Shown: positions 1,214-61,135 of the stretch, piece by piece | How the letters are laid out: each line of letters begins with the position of its first letter | Numbering within the stretch: the first letter of the stretch is position 1 | Assembly (NCBI GenBank): GCA_030386875.1 | Contig: CM059575.1 | Location: 50,126,859 to 50,190,858 of the forward strand | DNA length: 64,000 nucleotides | Reading direction: 5' to 3' | Source: Morinoia aosen | Lineage: Eukaryota; Arthropoda; Malacostraca; Amphipoda; Talitridae | The notes under the pieces: model-generated | What the model was told of the DNA's origin: nothing | The model's input: only the letters and a program-made list of their open reading frames with translations | The model's database searches: none | Position numbers and translations under genes: made by a program

Positions 1214-1908
1214 ACGACTAATATTTTAAATGCAATTTTGAGTGTTGTACCCTGTTATGCAGTAGCTCACGTCTGTACGCACTATTTTTGCAATAAAAAA
1301 TAAATTACTGTCTTTGTTAAAATATATCAGTGTATGTGATAGGGACTTCAAAGAGATTCAGCCTTAAACAAGTCACACCCTGAGGTCAAAAGAGTTTCCT
1401 TTCTCCTTATTGACACAGCCTTTAGTCTCATACGACACCTCGCCTAATAAGGGGTTTAAGGAGCCACCTCGGAAGGACGAACTATTTCGCATAGTTTGTC
1501 GATAGGAAGACGCTGTCGCAGTTCGGCACAAACAGAATTCACTTCTGTTGCCCTAGCGCTCTCATACGGCGCAGACAGTTGCTCGTCTTCCTAACGGTAC
1601 CACCGTAGTTCGGCACTAACAGAATTTACTTCTGTTGCCCTAGCGGACTTATTACGGCGTAGGTGGTACCCACACACACACCTCACTCTAGCGGTACCAC
1701 TGTAGTTCAGCACATAACAGAATTTACTTCTGTTGCCCTAGCGGACTGAATACGGCGCAGGTGGTACCCACACTAACCTCACCACCCACACACACGAACC
1801 TCAGGAAGGGCAGCTGCGAAGAAAAGCTAGCGCCTCGGAAAAGGTAGCTGTACAGAAGACAGCCCCTTTTCCACGAACCCTCACGTCGACCGCACGACGG
1901 TATCGACA
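1214..1908 (+). repeat. Left LTR of the GMR1-like element
   Basis: This segment matches the right LTR from about 6688 onward and ends in the same ...TATCGACA. It carries an AATAAA-type polyadenylation signal near 1300 and three hairpin units (1504-1592, 1596-1670, 1693-1768). The last 140 bases look identical to those of the right LTR. Confidence 0.85.
1504..1768 (+). other. Array of three structured hairpins in the left LTR
   Basis: Three units of 75-89 nt share a core: GYAGTTCGGCAC, then ACAGAA...TTCTGT, then TGCCCTAGCG, then TACGGCGYA. Within the core, GGCA pairs with TGCC and ACAGAA pairs with TTCTGT around a 5-nt loop. The outer stems differ. Unit 1 uses AGGAAGACG with CGTCTTCCT. Unit 2 uses GGTACCACC with GGTGGTACC, and unit 3 uses GGTACCAC with GTGGTACC. 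The array lies 3' of the polyadenylation signal, so it probably falls in U5 and hence in the leader of the genomic RNA. Confidence 0.75.
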
Positions 1909-1913
1909 TATTC

Positions 1914-1931
1914 TGGCGCCCGAACAGGGAC
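1914..1931 (+). promoter_or_regulatory. Primer-binding site, tRNA-Lys type
   Basis: Five bases after the left LTR lies TGGCGCCCGAACAGGGAC, the 18-nt complement of the 3' end of the tRNA-Lys that primes lentiviral and some other LTR elements. This marks the minus-strand start site and supports the LTR boundary at 1908. Confidence 0.9.
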
Positions 1932-2014: not shown

Positions 2015-5000
2015 ATGAACCTCGTCGCTCAAGCTCGAGAATACGTCGAAGCCCTCGGCCTCACTCCCACCGATGCGGAGTACCGGGAAGAATTTACCAG
2101 CCGCCTGAGGCATTTGGAAGAAGCCGCAGAACGAGCAGCGGAACGAGAAGAACGAGCAGCGGAACGAGAAGCAGCACAACGAGACCACGAGCTCAGACTC
2201 CGACAACTCGATGCTCAAATCGCTCCCCAAAATGCTAGAGTGAAGATACCTCCACCGGCTCCATTCGATCCCACGAAAGAAAGGATGGACGAATTCTTGC
2301 AACGCTTCTGCACTCACACCACAGCGATGGGATTTACTGAAGTCGATGCTGTTGTCATGCTCCATAATTTGATCACACCGAAGGAACGTCGACTCATCGA
2401 TACCCTGCCCGCAGCAGATCGCTTCAAGCTTCCTGAAATTAAATTGCTCCTACTAGATGCTCATAAAGTTACTCCGGCAAAACTACGTGCCAACTACTAC
2501 GAATTGAAGCCAGAAGAAGGCGACAATATGTCACGTTACCTACGGCGACTCGAACAATCCTTTGACGCTTGGTTAAAAGGATGCAACATCGAAGCCAACT
2601 ACAAGACTCTTCGTGACTTCCTTATTGTTGACCGAGCTTATTCAAGCTTGCCGCCCTTCCTCGCTACTCAATTGCGTGACAGGGGTGGTAACACAGTCGC
2701 AAGCCTAGGAGAGCAAGGTGATATCTTCTTACAAGCAAGACCTCATACATCGCTCCATCAGCTTTGTAAAGGTCGCACACTGACATCAACGACGGATGCG
2801 GGCCCTCCAGCACTCAAAGCATCAGAAGCACCAGAGCGACGCTCGACATTTCCTGTCCGAGCCCCGAGCACTCCAGCAAGATCACCCAACTCCAGCAACA
2901 ACTCTCGAGGAGCGCCGCCAAGAACTTCTAGCACACGTGGTGGTCCCACCAGCTCAGGATCGGTCAACACTCCGCAGCGCGAACAGCGAGGACCTTACAA
3001 TGGATTTTACTGTACTTTCCATGGCCCCAACCGATCGCATTCCAGTGACGAGTGCCGCCAATTGAAGAGGAGGCAAGGTGATGGTCACAGTAATGGAGCA
3101 GCCCATGCAAGCCCACCTATCTCCAGTACTACCGCTCGAGTAAACAATCTAGCAACGCATGAAGAAGCAGATGAATACGACGATATTCCCCCAGTCGCAT
3201 GCAATCACATCGCCTCGAACAAGCTGATCGAATTGGGACAGCTGAAAACATGCTCTGGCACCATGAACCAACAACCCGTTCAAGTACTACTCGATGGAGG
3301 AGCAACGGCGGTCTTCGTCAAGAAGGCTCTCGACCCAGCTGACGCCATTTTGAAGAAGGAAATTACCGTACGGCTGGCCAACAATCACTCTTTCGAAGCG
3401 CCTCTGGCCCGGGTCTCTCTCGTGTGCCCCTATTACCACGGAGAGGTGACAGCCGTAGCCATGGAAGAGCTCTCCCACGATGTCATTCTCGGCCGAGTTC
3501 CCGGAACCACTTCCTTCGAAGAACAGATGACCGACTATAAAGAGCAACCAGTTGCTGCAGAAGTCTCTCACGTTGTCACAAGGGCAGCAGCAAAAGCGAT
3601 CGAAGATCCCACTGCCGCACCAAGCACTGTCGATATATTGCAACACAACAAAGAAGACTTCAAGAAATTACAGCGGGAGTGCAAAACATTGCAGCTTTTA
3701 TTTAAGAAAGTTGACACTGGCAAAGAAGAAACGCACAAGGATGGCAGAGTCATTACCTTTGAACTCCATGACGGCATTCTCCATCGGAAAACGTTACGAG
3801 ACGGTCAGGAAACTCATCAACTTGTAGCACCTGCAAGCGTGCGCCCACAAATCTTGGAAATGGCTCATGACAATCCACTTGCTGGCCATTATTCCCAAAA
3901 GAAGACTCAGGCTCGACTAGAACGCGATTTTTATTGGCCGTCCCTAGCAAAAGATGTGGTCCAATGCTGTCACTCCTGCCATACCTGCCAGACGCACGCT
4001 CCATCTCGACCAAGAAAGGCACCTATCTCAACCCCACCGATCACCACTCCATTCTCCGCGCTCAGTGTTGATTTGGTAGGCCCATTACAACCAGCTTCGG
4101 CATGTGGCCACCGATACATTCTCACCGTGGTGGACCAAGCAACTCGGTACGCAGACGCAGCCCCGCTCAGACATATAGATGCAGAAACAGTCGCCCAGGA
4201 GCTACTCGAAATCTGCAGCAGAGTTGGTTTCCCTCACACGCTAACAAGCGACAACGGCACTCAGTTCACAGCTGCAACCTTCGAAGCTTTCCTGAAACTC
4301 GCCGGTATCCAGCACCGATTGACGCTATTATACCATGCCCAATCGAACGGCATAGTCGAACTCTTCAATGGTACGCTCAAAGTCATGTTGCGGAAGTTAG
4401 CAGTAGAACAGCCGCGAGATTGGGACCTGTATCTGCCTTCACTCCTTTTTGCTTATCGAGACGCTCCTCAGGCCTCAACCGGGTATTCTCCTTTCGAACT
4501 CATCTACGGCCATCGCGTCCGTGGACCTTTAACCGTGCTCAAGGAATGCTGGACCGATGGTAGCTTGCAAGACGACACGAGCACTGCTCAGTATTTGATG
4601 GAAATGAAGCACCGATTGAAAGAAACATGTAAAATCGCTCGCGAGAATCTAAACAGGAGCCAAGAGAAAAGCACCAAGTTCTTCAACAGACGTACCAAGA
4701 TGCGAACTCTAAAGCAAGGAGATAAAGTCCTCGTATTTCTGCCCGATTCTCGAGAGAAGCTACTTATGACTTGGAAAGGTCCCTATACAGTGAAATCACG
4801 CCTGGGAACCTATACCTATACATTGGACGTGGATGGAAACAACAAAGTCTATCACATCAACCTCCTTCGCCAGTACCACGACCGGGAGAAGCAAAGTTCC
4901 GCCTCACCAAGCGAGAAAGATCGCGAGGAGGACGACGAGAGAGTAGAGGAAGCATTTGCAGCGGTTGGCCTCGCCCTAGAACCTACCTGCGAAGAAGAAG

Positions 5001-6460
5001 AACTCGACCGGAAAGAACCAGAGATACCGTCACCCGTCGGAGAAACCATTGAAGACTGTCTCATCTCCTCTACGTTGACTACAACACAACACTCAGAACT
5101 CCAGGAACTTCTTGAAGAATATCGCGATCTTTTCACAGATACTCCCGGAAGAACCAGCACGGCAGTTCATGAAATAAAATTGAAGGATCCTTCCAGTTTT
5201 CGACTTCAACATTCGTATCCACTTCCCTTAGCGCTGGAGCCAGAACTGCGGTCAAGTTTAGAGAAGTGGATGATGATTGGAATCGTGACGCCATCCACAT
5301 CACCTTACTATTCACCGCTCCTTGCCGTCCGGAAGAAAGACGGAACCCACCGATTTTGTCTGGACTGCAGGCACCTCAACAGCCAGACAGTATTCGATGC
5401 CGAGCCGATAGCAGACACCACTGCTATTTTCACCAATTTAGCGGGCAAAACAATATTCAGCAAAATGGATCTGACCAGTGGATATTGGCAAGTACCTCTA
5501 CACCCTGAGTCCCGCCAATACACCGCCTTCAAAACTAGGTCTGGCCTCTATGAATTCAACGTACTGCCTTTCGGCCTAGCAAATGCTCCAGCCACTTTTT
5601 CCCGCCTTATACGTCAAGTCACTGCAGGACTGCAAGATACCGAGGTCTACATGGATGACATCTTAATCGCCTCGACAACCTGGGAAGATCATTGCACAGC
5701 ATTAGCTAAACTGTTCGAAGCTCTCTCTCGACATGGCCTTAAGGCGAAGCCGTCCAAATGCGAATTCGGATTTGACAGCCTCCAGTATTTGGGTCATCAA
5801 CTGAGCAGTAATCAGATCCAGCCTCTGGAGAACCGAGTCGAAGCCTTGAAATCGGCTCCACTCCCAAAAACCAAACGGGAGCTCCGAAGTTTTCTCGGTA
5901 CAGTTGGGTACTACCAACAGTACATTCCTAACTACTCTCAACTGACATCTAAACTCCATGATTTCCTAAAGAAGAACTCCCCAGAACAAATACCTTGGAC
6001 CGATACAACAGAAGATCTGTTCGAAAGTTTGAAGACAGCGTTAGTCAAGAGGCCGGTCTTACAGTTACCAGACCCCAGATGTCCTTTCATTCTGAGGACA
6101 GATGCCTCCCAAACTGGACTTGGAGCAGCTCTCCTCCAGCCAAGCAAACGAGACTTCCGTCACTACGCGCCGGTAGCATATGCTTCACGTCGACTGAGAG
6201 GAGCAGAAATAAACTATTCTACCATTGAAAAAGAAGCGTTAAGCATCTACTGGGCTCTACAGAAGTTTGAGGTCTACCTGTATGGACGAGAATTTGTGTT
6301 ACAAACCGACCATCGACCGCTCCTTTATTTGCAACAGGCAGACAAGTTGAACCCCCGATTGAAACGCTGGGCTTTGTATTTCAGCCTTTTCAGGTTCCGA
6401 GCCGAACACCTTCTGGGAGTCGACAACCACCTTGCAGATTTCCTGTCTCGGCTATCGTAG
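2015..6460 (+). CDS. Gag-pol polyprotein with integrase before RT (GMR1-like order)
   Basis: A single frame of 1481 codons encodes the element's structural and replication proteins. About residues 30-60 form an E/R/A-rich coiled coil. Residues 70-250 resemble gypsy-type gag, with a Cys/His knuckle near 330-350. Residues 415-490 form a retropepsin-like segment. Near 625-680 is the HHCC zinc finger of integrase, followed by a DDE core near 690-830 with SVDLVGPL and SDNGTQF. The RT lies at about 1110-1290, with KKDGTHRFCLDCRHLN, LPFGLANAP and YMDD, and RNase H at about 1370-1481 with LRTDAS and TDHRPL. Gag and pol share one frame, so no frameshift signal is needed to join them. The stop lies 22 nt before the right LTR. 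The frame looks whole. Confidence 0.92.
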   Translation: MNLVAQAREYVEALGLTPTDAEYREEFTSRLRHLEEAAERAAEREERAAEREAAQRDHELRLRQLDAQIAPQNARVKIPPPAPFDPTKERMDEFLQRFCTHTTAMGFTEVDAVVMLHNLITPKERRLIDTLPAADRFKLPEIKLLLLDAHKVTPAKLRANYYELKPEEGDNMSRYLRRLEQSFDAWLKGCNIEANYKTLRDFLIVDRAYSSLPPFLATQLRDRGGNTVASLGEQGDIFLQARPHTSLHQLCKGRTLTSTTDAGPPALKASEAPERRSTFPVRAPSTPARSPNSSNNSRGAPPRTSSTRGGPTSSGSVNTPQREQRGPYNGFYCTFHGPNRSHSSDECRQLKRRQGDGHSNGAAHASPPISSTTARVNNLATHEEADEYDDIPPVACNHIASNKLIELGQLKTCSGTMNQQPVQVLLDGGATAVFVKKALDPADAILKKEITVRLANNHSFEAPLARVSLVCPYYHGEVTAVAMEELSHDVILGRVPGTTSFEEQMTDYKEQPVAAEVSHVVTRAAAKAIEDPTAAPSTVDILQHNKEDFKKLQRECKTLQLLFKKVDTGKEETHKDGRVITFELHDGILHRKTLRDGQETHQLVAPASVRPQILEMAHDNPLAGHYSQKKTQARLERDFYWPSLAKDVVQCCHSCHTCQTHAPSRPRKAPISTPPITTPFSALSVDLVGPLQPASACGHRYILTVVDQATRYADAAPLRHIDAETVAQELLEICSRVGFPHTLTSDNGTQFTAATFEAFLKLAGIQHRLTLLYHAQSNGIVELFNGTLKVMLRKLAVEQPRDWDLYLPSLLFAYRDAPQASTGYSPFELIYGHRVRGPLTVLKECWTDGSLQDDTSTAQYLMEMKHRLKETCKIARENLNRSQEKSTKFFNRRTKMRTLKQGDKVLVFLPDSREKLLMTWKGPYTVKSRLGTYTYTLDVDGNNKVYHINLLRQYHDREKQSSASPSEKDREEDDERVEEAFAAVGLALEPTCEEEELDRKEPEIPSPVGETIEDCLISSTLTTTQHSELQELLEEYRDLFTDTPGRTSTAVHEIKLKDPSSFRLQHSYPLPLALEPELRSSLEKWMMIGIVTPSTSPYYSPLLAVRKKDGTHRFCLDCRHLNSQTVFDAEPIADTTAIFTNLAGKTIFSKMDLTSGYWQVPLHPESRQYTAFKTRSGLYEFNVLPFGLANAPATFSRLIRQVTAGLQDTEVYMDDILIASTTWEDHCTALAKLFEALSRHGLKAKPSKCEFGFDSLQYLGHQLSSNQIQPLENRVEALKSAPLPKTKRELRSFLGTVGYYQQYIPNYSQLTSKLHDFLKKNSPEQIPWTDTTEDLFESLKTALVKRPVLQLPDPRCPFILRTDASQTGLGAALLQPSKRDFRHYAPVAYASRRLRGAEINYSTIEKEALSIYWALQKFEVYLYGREFVLQTDHRPLLYLQQADKLNPRLKRWALYFSLFRFRAEHLLGVDNHLADFLSRLS

Positions 6461-6482: not shown

Positions 6483-7296
6483 TGTCAGGCCGTACAGGGG
6501 TTGTCGAGCCTTTTTGTGTTAGTTACCCATAATCTTAAGTATTTTCTTCATGTGTCCAGCTCTCTGAACGCCAACTTATCTATTTCCCCACGCTGATGTT
6601 GCGTTTGTGCATTTACTTTAGTTAGCCCTTAAATATCATTTGTATTACATGTCGATATTCCAATGTTTCTTGTGTTATCTAGCTAAATACAACTAATATT
6701 TTAAATGCAATTTTGAGTGTTGTACCCTGTTATGCAGTAGCTCACGTCTGTACGCACTATTTTTGCAATAGAAAATAAATCACTGTCTTTGTTAAAATAT
6801 ATCAGAGTATGTGATAGGGACTTCAAAGAGATTCAGCCATAAACAAGTCACACCCTGAGGTCAAAAGAGTTTCCTTTCTCCTTATTGACTCAGGCTTTAG
6901 TCTCATACGACACCTCGCCTAATAAGGGGTTAAAGGAGCCACCTCGGAAGGACGAACTATTTCGCATAGTTTGTCGATAGGAAGACGCTGTCGCAGTTCG
7001 GCATTAACAGAATTCACTTCTGTTGCCCTAGCGGACTTATTACGGCGTAGGTGGTACCCACACACACACCTCACTCTAGCGGTACCACCGTAGTTCGGCA
7101 CATAACAGAATTTACTTCTGTTGCCCTAGCGGACTGAATACGGCGCAGGTGGTACCCACACTAACCTCACCACCCACACACACGAACCTCAGGAAGGGCA
7201 GCTGCGAAGAAAAGCTAGCGCCTCGGAAAAGGTAGCTGTACAGAAGACAGCCCCTTTTCCACGAACCCTCACGTCGACCGCACGACGGTATCGACA
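6483..7296 (+). repeat. Right LTR of the GMR1-like element
   Basis: It begins TGTCAGGCCG and ends TATCGACA, the TG...CA ends expected of an LTR. The start is set by comparison with the solo LTR at 44427, whose border is fixed by a target duplication. It carries two hairpin units (about 6979-7058 and 7081-7156). The first combines the left part of unit 1 with the right part of unit 2 as seen in the left LTR, so units have recombined with each other. Confidence 0.88.
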
Positions 7297-9185: not shown

Positions 9186-9480
9186 CCCCCTCAGAGGGAC
9201 ACAACTATTGCATCCATGGGAATTAGCACTCCCTCGGGGAAAATATGAGGGCCCGAGCTGAGAGTTGGGTAGGCTTTCCTTACGTTTAAATGAAATGTGT
9301 TTCTTGTGTTAAGGAACATATTTTTTTTGGTTCACAGCTGTCCTGTTTTTCAGCACCTACTACATCTTCGAATTTGATCTTGTTTCATAATCTTCTTTCA
9401 TAACTTACTGTTTCCATGCCCTTTCTGCATAGATTCCGCGTTCCCTTAACTCCATACTGAATGTTGCCTTCCTCTTTGTT
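9186..9480 (+). repeat. SINE-A copy, lacking the 3' end
   Basis: Begins CCCCCTCAGAGGGACACAAC and follows the family consensus to CCTTCCTCTTTG, where the next copy begins. Head-to-tail contact of two copies suggests insertion of the second into the 3' end of the first. Confidence 0.75.
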
Positions 9481-9481
9481 C

Positions 9482-9850
9482 TTACCCTCAGGGGGATACA
9501 ACTATTGTATCTATGGGAATTAGCGCTCCCAAGGGAAAAATGTGAGGGCCCGAGCTGAGAGTTAGGTAGGCCTTCTTTTTTGTTGAAATGAAATGTTTTT
9601 TGTTATGTCAAAAACCACCTTTTTCCGGTTCACTACTGTCCTGTTTTTCAGCCCCTCTGACTTTCTTCTTCAACTTTTACCTTATTTCATGAACTTCTTT
9701 CCCATCTTACTGTTTCTATGCCCTTTCTGCATAGATTCCTCGTATTCTTATCTCCATACTAAATGGTGCCTTCCTCCTTCCTCTCTTCGATACGCTCTAA
9801 TTTTGCAGCGGTTAGGGAGGCTTAAACTAACTTCTAATCTAATCTAATCC
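9482..9850 (+). repeat. SINE-A copy with repeated 3' end
   Basis: Near complete, from ACCCTCAGGGGGATACAAC to CTTCTAATCTAATCTAATCC. The terminal block of about 70 bp (CCTCTCTT...GGGAGGCTTAAACTAACT) then recurs near 9849 and 9921, so the 3' end is present about three times up to 9990. Confidence 0.8.
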
Positions 9851-16220: not shown

Positions 16221-16790
16221 TTGTCACGGAATCGCGTTGTTTGCAATGGGTGTTATTGATTTTTTTATGTGAATATGAACTTGTCAAATCCCTTTGTAAT
16301 GAGTGGAGGTTGGTGGGATGCACAAGTTGGACCCTCGTCTCACATTCTTGTAACTTACTACAGTGTGGTAAATCTGAGTGAGGCAGAATCTTGTCTTTCT
16401 AGTGTTGTTGTTGTCACGGAATCGTGTTGTTTGCAATGGATGTTATTGATTTTTTTATGTAAGTCTGTACTTGTCAAATCACTTTGTAATGAGTGGAGGT
16501 TGGTGGGATGCACAAGTTGGACCCTCGTCTCACATTCTTGTAACTTACTACAGTGTGGTAAATCTGAGTGAGGCAGAATCTTGTCTTTCTAGTGTTGTTG
16601 TTGTCACGGAATCGTGTTGTTTGCAATGGATGTTATTGATTTTTTTATGTAAGTCTGTACTTGTCAAATCACTTTGTAATGAGTGGAGGTTGGTGGGATG
16701 CACAAATTGGAACCTCGTCTCACATTCTTGTAACTTACTACAGTGTGGTAAATGTGAGTGAGGCTGAAACTTGTCTTTTTAGTGTTAAGT
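16221..16790 (+). repeat. 190-bp tandem triplication inside the hAT
   Basis: TTGTCACGGA recurs at 16221, 16411 and 16601, an exact 190-bp period. Units 2 and 3 are nearly identical; unit 1 differs more. The open frames seen across the array only reflect the repetition. Confidence 0.9.
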
Positions 16791-43500: not shown

Positions 43501-46500
43501 TAAGCCTCCCTTATCTCAACAAAAGTTTTTCCTAGGAGAACAAGGAAAGCACCATTTAGTATGACGTAAAGGGACCGGAAATTCTTTGCACAAGCTGCGT
43601 ACCTACTCCCAGCGCACATAAATAGCAAGATTTAAAGAATTCTATGGAACAAGATGAAAGACAAATAAGAAAAAACGTTGGAAAAATGACAGCATTATTA
43701 TTATTTATTATTATTATTTTGGGATTTTCCCGCCGTTTTCGATACTCTTACGACATCACAGCATAATTTGGTAGCGTCGCTACATTTAGGTCTTATGATG
43801 GGAATTTGTAGGGGGTGAGGATCATCCCAACTGCGTTTTAGAGCCGTGGTGTGTCAGCTTTGGTCTGACGGAGGAGCGACGGTGTTTCTAGTCGCGGGCA
43901 TGCGCGCTGGCGATGGTTTGGGAAAAATGACAGCAGTGGACCGAACAAAATATGATTCTTAACACAAAAAATTTCTATTTTACTTTAACAAAAGAAAGGC
44001 TGTCTAACTCTCAGCTGGAGACCTCACACATCTTCCACCTAGAAGCGCTGATTCCCATAAATACAATAGTTGTATCCCCCTGAGGAGAAAAATAAGTCAG
44101 AATTGATTATAAAGTTATCCACTACTATTCATATTCATTACCTCGCCTCCTAGCTTTCCGCGTTTTTTTTCGCCGCATATTGGTTGTTATTAAATTTGCT
44201 CAAAATGATTAAATGAGGCTCAATGAAAGGATAAAAGGCTCCTGAAGTGACATTTCCGTTGAAAAATTGACGAAGTTGCAACAAAAAATCTTCCAGAGAC
44301 ACATGCAATGATCTGATAAAAAGAAGGAAATGAAAGCTTATATATAACGTTTATTTTTGTTCAACAGTCACGTGAAGAAAACGTGAAAACAAAACAGGAT
44401 GAATTCCTAAAGAAGAATTTGACCAGTGTCACGCCGCACAGGGGTTGTCGAGCCTTTTTCTGTTAGTTACCCATAATCTTGAGTATTTTCTTTATGTGTC
44501 CAGTTCCCTGAACGCCGACTTGTCTGAGTGCTCTCCGTGGCACAGCGGTTAAGGGATCGAACTTGTATGCTGGAAGTCGCGGGTTCGTTCCCAGCGCTGG
44601 CGCGGAGATTTTCCCCGTTGGGTATAAGGGAAAGCTCAAGCACAATACCCCACTCGACCCAGGTGTCGGAAATGGGTACCGGCTTTACGGGGGAACCGTC
44701 ATGGTGTCCTATATATAGGGTTAGTTATAAGACATTTGAAAAACCAATGCTAAGATCATATGTATCAGGCTTGATTGGAAATAAAGCATCCCAAAGATGC
44801 AGATGTTAACCTTAACCTTTAACCTTCTCTGCGCAGATGTTGCGTCTGTGCATTTACTTTAGTTAGCCCTTAAATATCATTTGTATTACATGTCGATAAT
44901 CCAATATTTCTTGTGTTATCTAGCTAAATACGACTAATATTTTCAATGCAATTTTGAGTGTTGTACCCTGTTATGCAGTAGCTCACGTATGTACGCACTA
45001 TTTTTGCATTAGAAAATAAATCACTGTCTTTGTTAAAATGTATTTGTGTATGTAATAGGGACTTCAAAGAGATTCAGCATTAAACAAGTCAAACCCTGAG
45101 GTCAAAAGAGTTTCCTTTACCCTTATTGATACAGGCTTTAGTCTCATACGACACCTCGCCTAATAAGGGGATTAAGGAGCCACCTCGGAAGGACGAACTA
45201 CTTCGCATAGTTGGTCGATTAGGAAGACGCTGTCGCAGTTCGGCACTAACAGAATTCACTTCTGTTGCCCTAACGGTCTCATACGGCGCAGACAGTTGGT
45301 CGTCTTCCTAAAGGTACCGCCGTAGTTTGGCACAAACGGAATTTACTTCTGTTGCCCTAGCGGACTGAATACGGCGTAGGCGGTACCCAAACACACACAC
45401 CTCACTCTAGCGGTACCACCGTAGTTCGGCACAAGACAGAATTTACTTCTGTTGCCCTAGCGGACTGAATACGGCGCAGGTGGTACCCACACTAACCTCA
45501 CCCCCACACACAACGGTACCGCCGTAGTTCGGCACTAACAGAATTTACTTCTGTTGCCCTAGCGGACTGATTACGGCGTAGGCGGTACCCACACGAACCT
45601 CAGAAAGGGCAGCTGCAAAGAAAAGCTAGCGCCCCGGAAAAAGGTAGCTGCACAGAAGACAGCCCCCTTTTCCACGAACCCTCACGTCGACCGCACGACG
45701 GTATCGACAACCAGGCTTATGAGTAGTTAAGAAAGCTACTCTGAATACCAATCACTTTAAGTTATGTCAAACACAAGGCGAGGCTCACAAGAGAGCCAGT
45801 ACCAGCGCACACACATGCAATACTACACAGACCTGAAGGATCATCGTCAGCCTCCGAGAAATGACAAGCTCATAAAAAACAGAACAATTCTACACATAGG
45901 ACGCCAAAAAAATGGTCCCTGTCTATCCTAAAGGCCTTCGTTATGAACTGAACCTTAGATAAAGAAAAAAATTAATTATTTATCCTGCAATTGATTTTCA
46001 CACGAAGATTATCGAGAATAAAACAGTAGTTTTCTTGTACAGTCACTGAAATTCTGATCAACTTGAAGAAATATTACTTTAAAATTTCAACAGATCATTA
46101 ACATATAGACATCATAAAGCATAAACCTTGGTAGAACTTAATCTTCAAGAATGCTAAGCTAACATCTCATAAATCTAGACCGGAAACAGGGATGTTTGCG
46201 CGTTCGTCGGTTTAAATGGCATTAAAAATTTTACTATCTTAAAAATTTGAGAAAGGAAATATTCTATGTCACAACTGAATTTCTGATTCCAACATTTACA
46301 CCATTTTTTGCAAGAAAGAAAAAAAAATTGTAAATGAAGACTTGAAATTTCACGCATCAACAGCTCTAAGGTTTTTACTCATATATATGAAATACTTTAA
46401 CAAATTCGATTTACTAAATGAAGATTTTGAGAAAACCACTGCTCAGCGAGCGATCAAATTTTATTTCCATTCAAACTTCTTGAAATTAAAATACACTGAA

Positions 46501-59759: not shown

Positions 59760-61135
59760 ATAGATTAGGTTAGGATAGATTAGGTTAGGATAGATTAGGT
59801 TAGGATAGATTAGGTTAGGATAGATTAGGTTGGCACAGATTAGGTTGGCACAGATTAGGTTGGCACAGATTAGGTTGGCACAGATTAGGTTGGCACAGAT
59901 TAGGTTGGCACAGATTAGGTTGGCACAGATTAGGTTGCCACAGATTAGGTTGCCACAGATTAGGTTGCCACAGATTAGGTTGCCACAGATTAGGTTGCCA
60001 CAGATTAGGTTGCCACAGATTAGGTTGCCACAGATTAGGTTGCCACAGATTAGGTTGCCACAGATTAGGTTGCCACAGATTAGGTTGCCACAGATTAGGT
60101 TGCCACAGATTAGGTTGCCACAGATTAGGTTGCCACAGATTAGGTTGCCACAGATTAGGTTGCCACAGATTAGGTTGCCACAGATTAGGTTGCCACAGAT
60201 TAGGTTGCCACAGATTAGGTTGCCACAGATTAGGTTGCCACAGATTAGGTTGCCACAGATTAGGTTGCCACAGATTAGGTTGCCACAGATTAGGTTAGCA
60301 CAGATTAGGTTAGCACAGATTAGGTTAGCACAGATTAGGTTAGCACAGATTAGGTTAGCACAGATTAGGTTAGCACAGATTAGGTTAGCACAGATTAGGT
60401 TAGCACAGATTAGGTTAGCACAGATTAGATTAGCACAGATTAGGTTAGCACAGATTAGGTTAGCACAGATTAGGTTAGCACAGATTAGGTTAGCACAGAT
60501 TAGGTTAGCACAGATTAGGTTAGCACAGATTAGGTTAGCACAGATTAGGTTAGCACAGATTAGGTTAGCACAGATTAGGTTAGCATAGATTAGGTTAGCA
60601 TAGATTAGGTTAGCATAGATTAGGTTATCATAGATTAGGTTATCATAGATTAGGTTATCATAGATTAGGTTATCATAGATTATGTTATCATAGATTATGT
60701 TAGCATAGATTATGTTAGGATAGATTATGTTAGGATAGATTATGTTAGGATAGATTATGTTAGGATAGATTATGTTAGAATAGATTATGTTAGGATAGAT
60801 TATGTTAGGATAGATTATGTTAGGATAGATTATGTTAGGATAGATTATGTTAGGATAGATTATGTTAGGATAGATTATGTTAGGATAGATTATGTTAGGA
60901 TAGATTATGTTAGGATAGATTATGTTAGGATAGATTATGTTAGGATAGATTATGTTAGGATAGATTATGTTAGGATAGATTATGTTAGGATAGGTTATGT
61001 TAGGATAGATTATGTTAGGATAGATTATGTTAGGATAGATTACGTTAGGATAGATTATGTTAGGGTAGATTATGTTAGGGTAGACTATGTTAGGGTAGAC
61101 TATGTTAGGGTAGACTATGTTAGGGTAGATATGTT
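59760..61135. repeat. 15-bp minisatellite, about 90 units, graded variants
   Basis: The basic unit is AGATTAGGTTNNCAC or AGATTAGGTTAGGAT. Variants occur in blocks from left to right: TTAGGATAG, GGCACAG, GCCACAG, AGCACAG, AGCATAG, ATCATAG, then TTATGTTAGGATAG and TTATGTTAGGGTAG. Each block differs from the next by one base. The unit length is a multiple of three, so a long artificial open frame (AQIRL/PQIRL repeats) crosses it. Confidence 0.95.

Follow-up and report, generated by a model that had tools for sequence, protein, structure and literature searches.

The window analysed here is a 64-kb stretch of the Morinoia aosen genome that contains three LTRs of one retrotransposon family, each with a short array of hairpin units. 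The features on which the following account draws are given below.

1214..1908, + strand: 5' LTR, truncated at its 5' end; located in a blastn search with L004, a complete LTR of 985 bp, as query
1292..1297, + strand: AATAAA polyadenylation signal, read from the sequence and equivalent to LTR position 291 in L004
1504..1592, + strand: unit a of the 5' LTR, outer arms AGGAAGACG-CTGTC / GACAG-..-CGTCTTCCT
1596..1670, + strand: unit b of the 5' LTR, outer arms GGTACCACC / GGTGGTACC
1693..1768, + strand: unit c of the 5' LTR, outer arms GGTACCACT / GGTGGTACC, including one T-G pair
1914..1931, + strand: primer-binding site (PBS) TGGCGCCCGAACAGGGAC, read from the sequence
2015..6460, + strand: single ORF of 1481 aa, with the order protease-like stretch, integrase, reverse transcriptase, RNase H
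6483..7296, + strand: 3' LTR with a two-unit array; located by blastn with L004
6979..7058, + strand: recombinant unit of the 3' LTR, a-type 5' arm and b-type 3' arm, outer stem unpaired
7081..7156, + strand: unit c of the 3' LTR, from the real-copy covariance model and fold
44427..45709, + strand: third LTR copy, broken by other DNA at about 44527-44824; located by blastn with L004
45221..45309, + strand: unit a of the third LTR, from the real-copy covariance model and fold
45313..45387, + strand: unit b of the third LTR, outer arms GGTACCGCC / GGCGGTACC
45412..45487, + strand: unit c of the third LTR, outer arms GGTACCACC / GGTGGTACC
45515..45589, + strand: unit d of the third LTR, outer arms GGTACCGCC / GGCGGTACC

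The element that bears the arrays is an LTR retrotransposon of high copy number, in which the integrase lies 5' of the reverse transcriptase. Its 5' LTR aligns by blastn to positions 206-985 of the L004 LTR, positions 1-205 being missing, and the third copy is split into LTR positions 1-99 (44427-44526) and 101-985 (44825-45709). The foreign DNA lodged between these two parts (44527-44824, approximately 300 bases) starts with a stretch that appears tRNA-like by eye. A Pfam search of the ORF, conducted on separate pieces, placed H2C2 and rve within 3215-4414 and RVT_1 and RT_RNaseH within 5315-6460; the protease-like stretch falls under the Pfam cut-off. The PBS is one that we take to be complementary to tRNA-Lys. 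Five full copies from other parts of the 1.99-Gb genome carry LTR pairs that align over 982-1079 bp at 97.8-100% identity, one pair being 100% identical, and 5-bp target duplications were recognized by eye in all five. Thus, the family displays the paired TG..CA LTRs, target duplication, PBS, integrase, and reverse transcriptase of an LTR retrotransposon. The window copy further has an integrase 5' of a gypsy-type RT/RNase H, an order it shares with the Gmr1-like Ty3/gypsy elements, in which the integrase precedes the reverse transcriptase (PMC3587641); this domain order makes it a candidate member of that clade. One difference is that a hairpin array goes unmentioned in the accessible part of that paper. 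Elsewhere in the window, tandem repeats of other kinds are present, comprising approximately 88 copies of the 15-bp unit AGATTAGGTTAGCAC (59762-61078, 98% alike), a 190-bp repeat in three copies (16221-16786, 96% alike), and a 302-bp repeat in two copies (9188-9776, 80% alike). No telomere repeat occurs in the first 240 bases of two contigs or in the final 264 of a third.

A first-pass annotation of this DNA had described nine units (three, two, and four) built on a common core, and all nine were confirmed at the three LTRs, namely at 1504-1768, 6979-7156, and 45221-45589. A covariance model constructed from real copies only, with matches accepted up to an E value of 0.01, returned exactly these nine in 64 kb, all on the + strand and at E ≤ 2.1e-13. 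With a previous model and a cut-off of E 1, the same nine units came up along with five weak minus-strand matches on top of them (E 0.19-0.41). Likewise, the 17-mer CTTCTGTTGCCCTAGCG has nine matches at three or fewer mismatches in the window, compared with 0.06 expected in shuffles. The annotation had also stated that the outer stems differ and nonetheless still pair. This holds for eight of the nine units, for which the quoted stem pairs are correct, the last pair in 1693-1768 being T-G; it fails for the a/b recombinant at 6979-7058, whose 5' arm AGGAAGACGCTGTC and 3' arm GGTGGTACC cannot pair. The units are situated between the AATAAA and the PBS, in U5 of the element, and the array was rightly placed after the polyadenylation signal: in the 5' LTR it starts about 207 bases 3' of the AATAAA, near which the R/U5 boundary would lie. 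In L004, the array starts at LTR position 496.

Each unit appears to constitute one structured-RNA module of approximately 75-90 nt on the + strand, a proposal that the evidence supports but does not prove. From the outside in, the module would consist of P1 as its outer clamp, then an asymmetric internal loop with GY on its 5' side and about 12 nt ending in ACGGCGYA on its 3' side, P2 (AGUUC/GGACU), a 5-nt bulge (CUARC), P3a (GGC/GCC), and an inner hairpin (P3b). The available copies support the view that P1 and P3b each come in two unrelated forms, while the junction and the sequence of P2 and P3a stay constant.

This fold is backed from several sides, although it is not proven. When units were folded alone, only 0-4 of 200 dinucleotide shuffles folded equally well for seven of them; the corresponding counts were 11 of 200 for the unit at 45313 and 13 of 200 for the recombinant at 6979-7058. 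Folding z-scores ranged from -2.0 to -3.9 for eight units and reached -1.4 for the recombinant. Thermodynamic pair probabilities are divided in units b, c, and d (0.5-0.7 for P2 and 0.4-0.9 for P3a), and in the young unit a, where P2 contains a mismatch, this helix has a predicted probability of 0. Folds of old unit a show alternative pairs in place of the inner P1 segment; in one real old copy (L118), P2, P3a, and an inner hairpin of the TCAGG type described below form jointly. Folding of the whole array joins the 5' arm of b to the 3' arm of c because these arms are interchangeable, and in a 511-nt fold P1 of b and c is not formed as in the plan. Other alternative pairings in the folds include UACGG/CCGUA in b/c/d, noted by eye, and ACGGCG/CGCUGU in unit a. 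At least one of the nine P1 pairs is missing in 39 of 180 b/c/d units.

The suggestion that a stem can be replaced outright while the core is kept was borne out, and unit a shows it for its inner hairpin as well. Between unit a (9+5 pairs in P1) and b/c/d (9 pairs), the P1 stems are unrelated. In older subfamilies, unit a carries a different inner hairpin on an unchanged core, GGC-GAA-TCAGG..CCTGA-GGA-GCC and variants thereof. Thirteen old unit-a copies with this TCAGG..CCTGA-type hairpin were extracted, having been selected by a loose pattern for that very hairpin; by eye, nine pair at all five positions, with G-U counted, and four are mismatched. The older subfamily represented by L044 contains six distinct b-type units that read GATACCGCC/GGCGGTATC. 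Two narrow patterns anchored on the exact core revealed neither inner nor outer stems of a third kind.

Comparison of older with younger copies also indicates which parts of the LTR have diverged. At six older loci (L038, L039, and L041-L044), the LTR part 5' of the array is 74-82% identical to the young LTR and the part 3' of it 86-96%; because the post-array LTR is so well preserved, strong conservation is not peculiar to the modules. Among 69 older units, identity amounts to 97% in the junction (CUARC, GY), 96% in P2 plus P3a, 95% in P3b, and 94% in P1, and to 85% in the 3' strand of the internal loop and 68% in the P3 loop plus bulge, all measured against whichever young unit of a single reference locus was closest, a choice that inflates the figures somewhat.

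Genome-wide, the core pattern AGTTCGGCAC..GCCCTAGCG has 4142 matches and none in a reversed control, which, together with the near-identity of the five LTR pairs, supports a family that is large and was active recently. From 85 loci, the three LTRs of the window included, 243 units were extracted. The extraction is incomplete (the unit at 1504 of the window was missed), and because it still contains 5'/3' LTR pairs of single elements, pair tests were restricted to distinct sequences. By a rough rule of arm typing, 180 units are b-type in both arms, 48 are a-type in both, and 15 are neither; at least six of these 15 have truly altered arms (L058, L094, L099, L116, L127, and W2), and most of the others are ordinary a units with additional mutations. 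The usual order in young arrays is a-b-c-d. In a non-random sample of 32 distinct arrays, made up of the best matches to unit b and the three from the window, 24 hold four units, six hold five, one holds three, and one holds two. The 105 linkers between b/c/d units, repeats counted, are 86% A+C and 2.6% G.

Recombinants that unite an a 5' arm with a b 3' arm, and whose arms are therefore unpaired, number 53 across the genome, with that at 6979-7058 (C20:50133844) among them, against 813 units found by a corresponding pattern to have both a arms. Such broken units imply that any function of the units, if one exists, would be redundant across them. They also bear on the idea that the array is an idle minisatellite, that is, a palindromic unit multiplied by unequal recombination and homogenised by gene conversion. 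The commonness of a/b recombinants and the variable number of units (2 to 5 across the 32 distinct arrays) fit this idea; however, P1 and P3b have each kept two unrelated forms around one core, and the loop diverges where the helices do not. We regard an idle repeat as quite unlikely.

The array was also sought outside the family. Among the first 30 of 259 genomic places at which other families would combine the same primer site with a different spacer, 29 lack the unit, and the sole unit-bearing locus (L087) has the array family's own LTR end. Several other same-PBS families in this set (L061-L090, at about locus position 1502) carry, by eye, one or two near-copies of the PBS about 40-50 bases 5' of it, which gives the impression of a tandem duplication of the primer site. 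Four contigs from IMG/VR fit the core pattern and were rejected, the third core part being absent.

If the modules were maintained as folded RNA, as the first-pass annotation had argued, compensatory changes would be expected in their helices, and here the outcome is divided. In favor, 9 of the 24 helix pairs show two-sided Watson-Crick swaps, compared with 116 of 957 background pairs (p 0.0013), as counted in 128 distinct b/c/d units against column pairs with a pairable consensus and with a p value that ignores relatedness. The swapped pairs lie in P1 (2-74, 3-73, 5-71, and 7-69), P2 (14-52 and 16-50), P3a (17-44), and P3b (26-38 and 28-36). With exclusion of 7-69 and 2-74, which are seen in many copies, 7 of 22 pairs remain (p 0.0125); of 11 double-mutant cells, 8 are Watson-Crick, versus 191 of 560 (p 0.011). 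Seven of the nine compensated pairs draw their support from just one or two copies, among them a pair in P2 of L116 that adjoins a C-A mismatch. Shuffle tests by helix, which likewise ignore the relatedness of copies, yielded 45 two-sided cells in P1 versus 18 expected, with none of 300 shuffles as high, and two cells each in P2 (0.5 expected; 25 of 300 shuffles as high), P3a (0.5; 20 of 300), and P3b (0.6; 39 of 300). In a set of 12 real units, two-sided change was found at just two pairs, equalled by 72 of 500 shuffles, and the covariation score was equalled by 7 of 500.

On the other side, a tree-aware null of the R-scape type returned no pair with E <1 among 2628, in a test of low power confined to one genome. 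This null was custom-written, with a tree from the same 75 columns and 200 simulations. Its two top-ranking pairs, 7-65 and 65-69, are non-helix; the helix pair 7-69 comes third (E 4.1) and 2-74 seventh of 2628. Significant covariation in both outer and inner stems, which the annotation had named as supporting evidence, was consequently not obtained with the present copies.

Half-changes add an indication of their own. G-U exceeds A-C by 71 to 51, a surplus that only leans toward RNA of the + strand. The same surplus touches on whether the array could instead act as DNA, by binding a protein (as an enhancer or insulator) or by extruding cruciforms, with the RNA fold as a by-product. The arms are palindromic at the DNA level too, and LTRs with arrayed binding sites have a precedent in the gypsy insulator. 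Both the half-changes and the G-poor linkers suit RNA better, though neither is decisive, and we regard a DNA-level element as distinctly improbable.

No counterpart of the module was recognized among known RNAs, in agreement with the annotation's statement that the array matches no known ribozyme or element. Searches with the covariance models of Rfam (release 15) gave no match at gathering score in the window and none at E up to 10 in 1490-1800, and the Rfam models detected no hammerhead core in the window or in 1490-1800. Ribozymes and ligand-binding RNAs typically look like this, with stems of free sequence framing a junction that is conserved and largely unpaired, and the module might be an unrecognised member of either class. 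Nevertheless, Rfam is without a match on both strands, and self-cleavage at several leader units would sever the genomic RNA. We consider this idea far-fetched. A description of such an array was found neither in the literature, as judged by titles and the starts of abstracts, nor by word search in PMC4974528.

Some LTR elements nevertheless invite comparison. Retrozymes also keep a conserved structured RNA within their LTRs, in their case hammerhead ribozymes, but they are non-autonomous, and the present array is without a hammerhead match (PMC4918200, as far as accessible). Cassandra, Helenus, and Ajax similarly possess LTR-internal sequence that resembles folded RNA, namely 5S rRNA- or tRNA-derived parts; these are non-autonomous elements with a Pol III promoter, unlike the array described here, which has no Rfam match (PMC10886601, accessible part).

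Because its stems change while pairing and core mostly stay, the array is probably a modular RNA signal that serves the retrotransposon's own life cycle. The best explanation in our view, held tentatively and at rather less than an even chance, is that the + strand RNA modules of the U5 leader are repeated docking sites on the element's RNA. With the AATAAA upstream and the PBS downstream, the genomic RNA would carry the modules in its 5' leader, two to five of them in series on G-poor, A/C-rich U5 linkers. There, they may tag the RNA as belonging to the element, most probably for recognition by its Gag, during packaging or dimerisation. Arrays with lost or broken units would then be explained by redundancy among modules.

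A role in packaging or dimerisation is a best guess, made by analogy with retroviruses and Ty1. Retroviral packaging stem-loops are hairpins of the leader, 5' of gag, in which conserved unpaired bases are exposed. The modules, as putative leader hairpins with conserved unpaired bases, would resemble them and differ in their long conserved junction and U5 position; homology was neither found nor expected. In Ty1, the 5' end of the RNA carries cis signals for translation, packaging, and priming, and its function is restored by compensatory changes (PMC5454406, accessible part). The present element would share with Ty1 a structured 5' end of the LTR-retrotransposon RNA; however, the Ty1 leader (TIPIRT domain) forms a pseudoknot with two complementary (kissing) hairpins, in contrast to the tandem like modules found here.

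Position in the leader would also be compatible with other tasks. The modules might affect ribosome entry or scanning, or shield the RNA, as a translation or stability element; they are located upstream of one long ORF, and the leader has few ATGs, with a mean of 2.2 versus 3.95 in shuffles over 44 stretches (one of them a spurious match on the reverse strand, and a few overlapping each other). CAT, the other-strand word of ATG, is likewise scarce (4.5 versus 7.0 in shuffles), so the shortage is non-specific, and we dropped it as a sign of scanning. A translation or stability element is unlikely on this evidence, albeit worth keeping in mind. U5 is, moreover, copied into strong-stop DNA, and the modules could fold it close to the primer site and so assist priming or strand transfer. 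Here, GTTCGG in the core is the complement of CCGAAC in the PBS, but a 6-base match is expected in an estimated one of seven such comparisons. We consider a part in reverse transcription very unlikely.

A bolder reading can also be formulated, which we deem rather unlikely: the modules would represent a class of modular functional RNA that has not been described before and that a single retrotransposon lineage has multiplied to thousands of copies, with the conserved junction as a protein- or ligand-binding (even catalytic) site and with copy number tuning what becomes of the element's RNA. For a cis-acting RNA of a retroelement, the tandem arrangement and the exchangeable stems are in any event unusual. 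In our judgement, little is known about such cis-acting RNA signals in the LTR retrotransposons of animals. A module that recurs within each element and thousands of times across the genome, along with its natural stem swaps, copy-number variants, and broken recombinants, would provide a set of mutants in which to study the role of such a signal.
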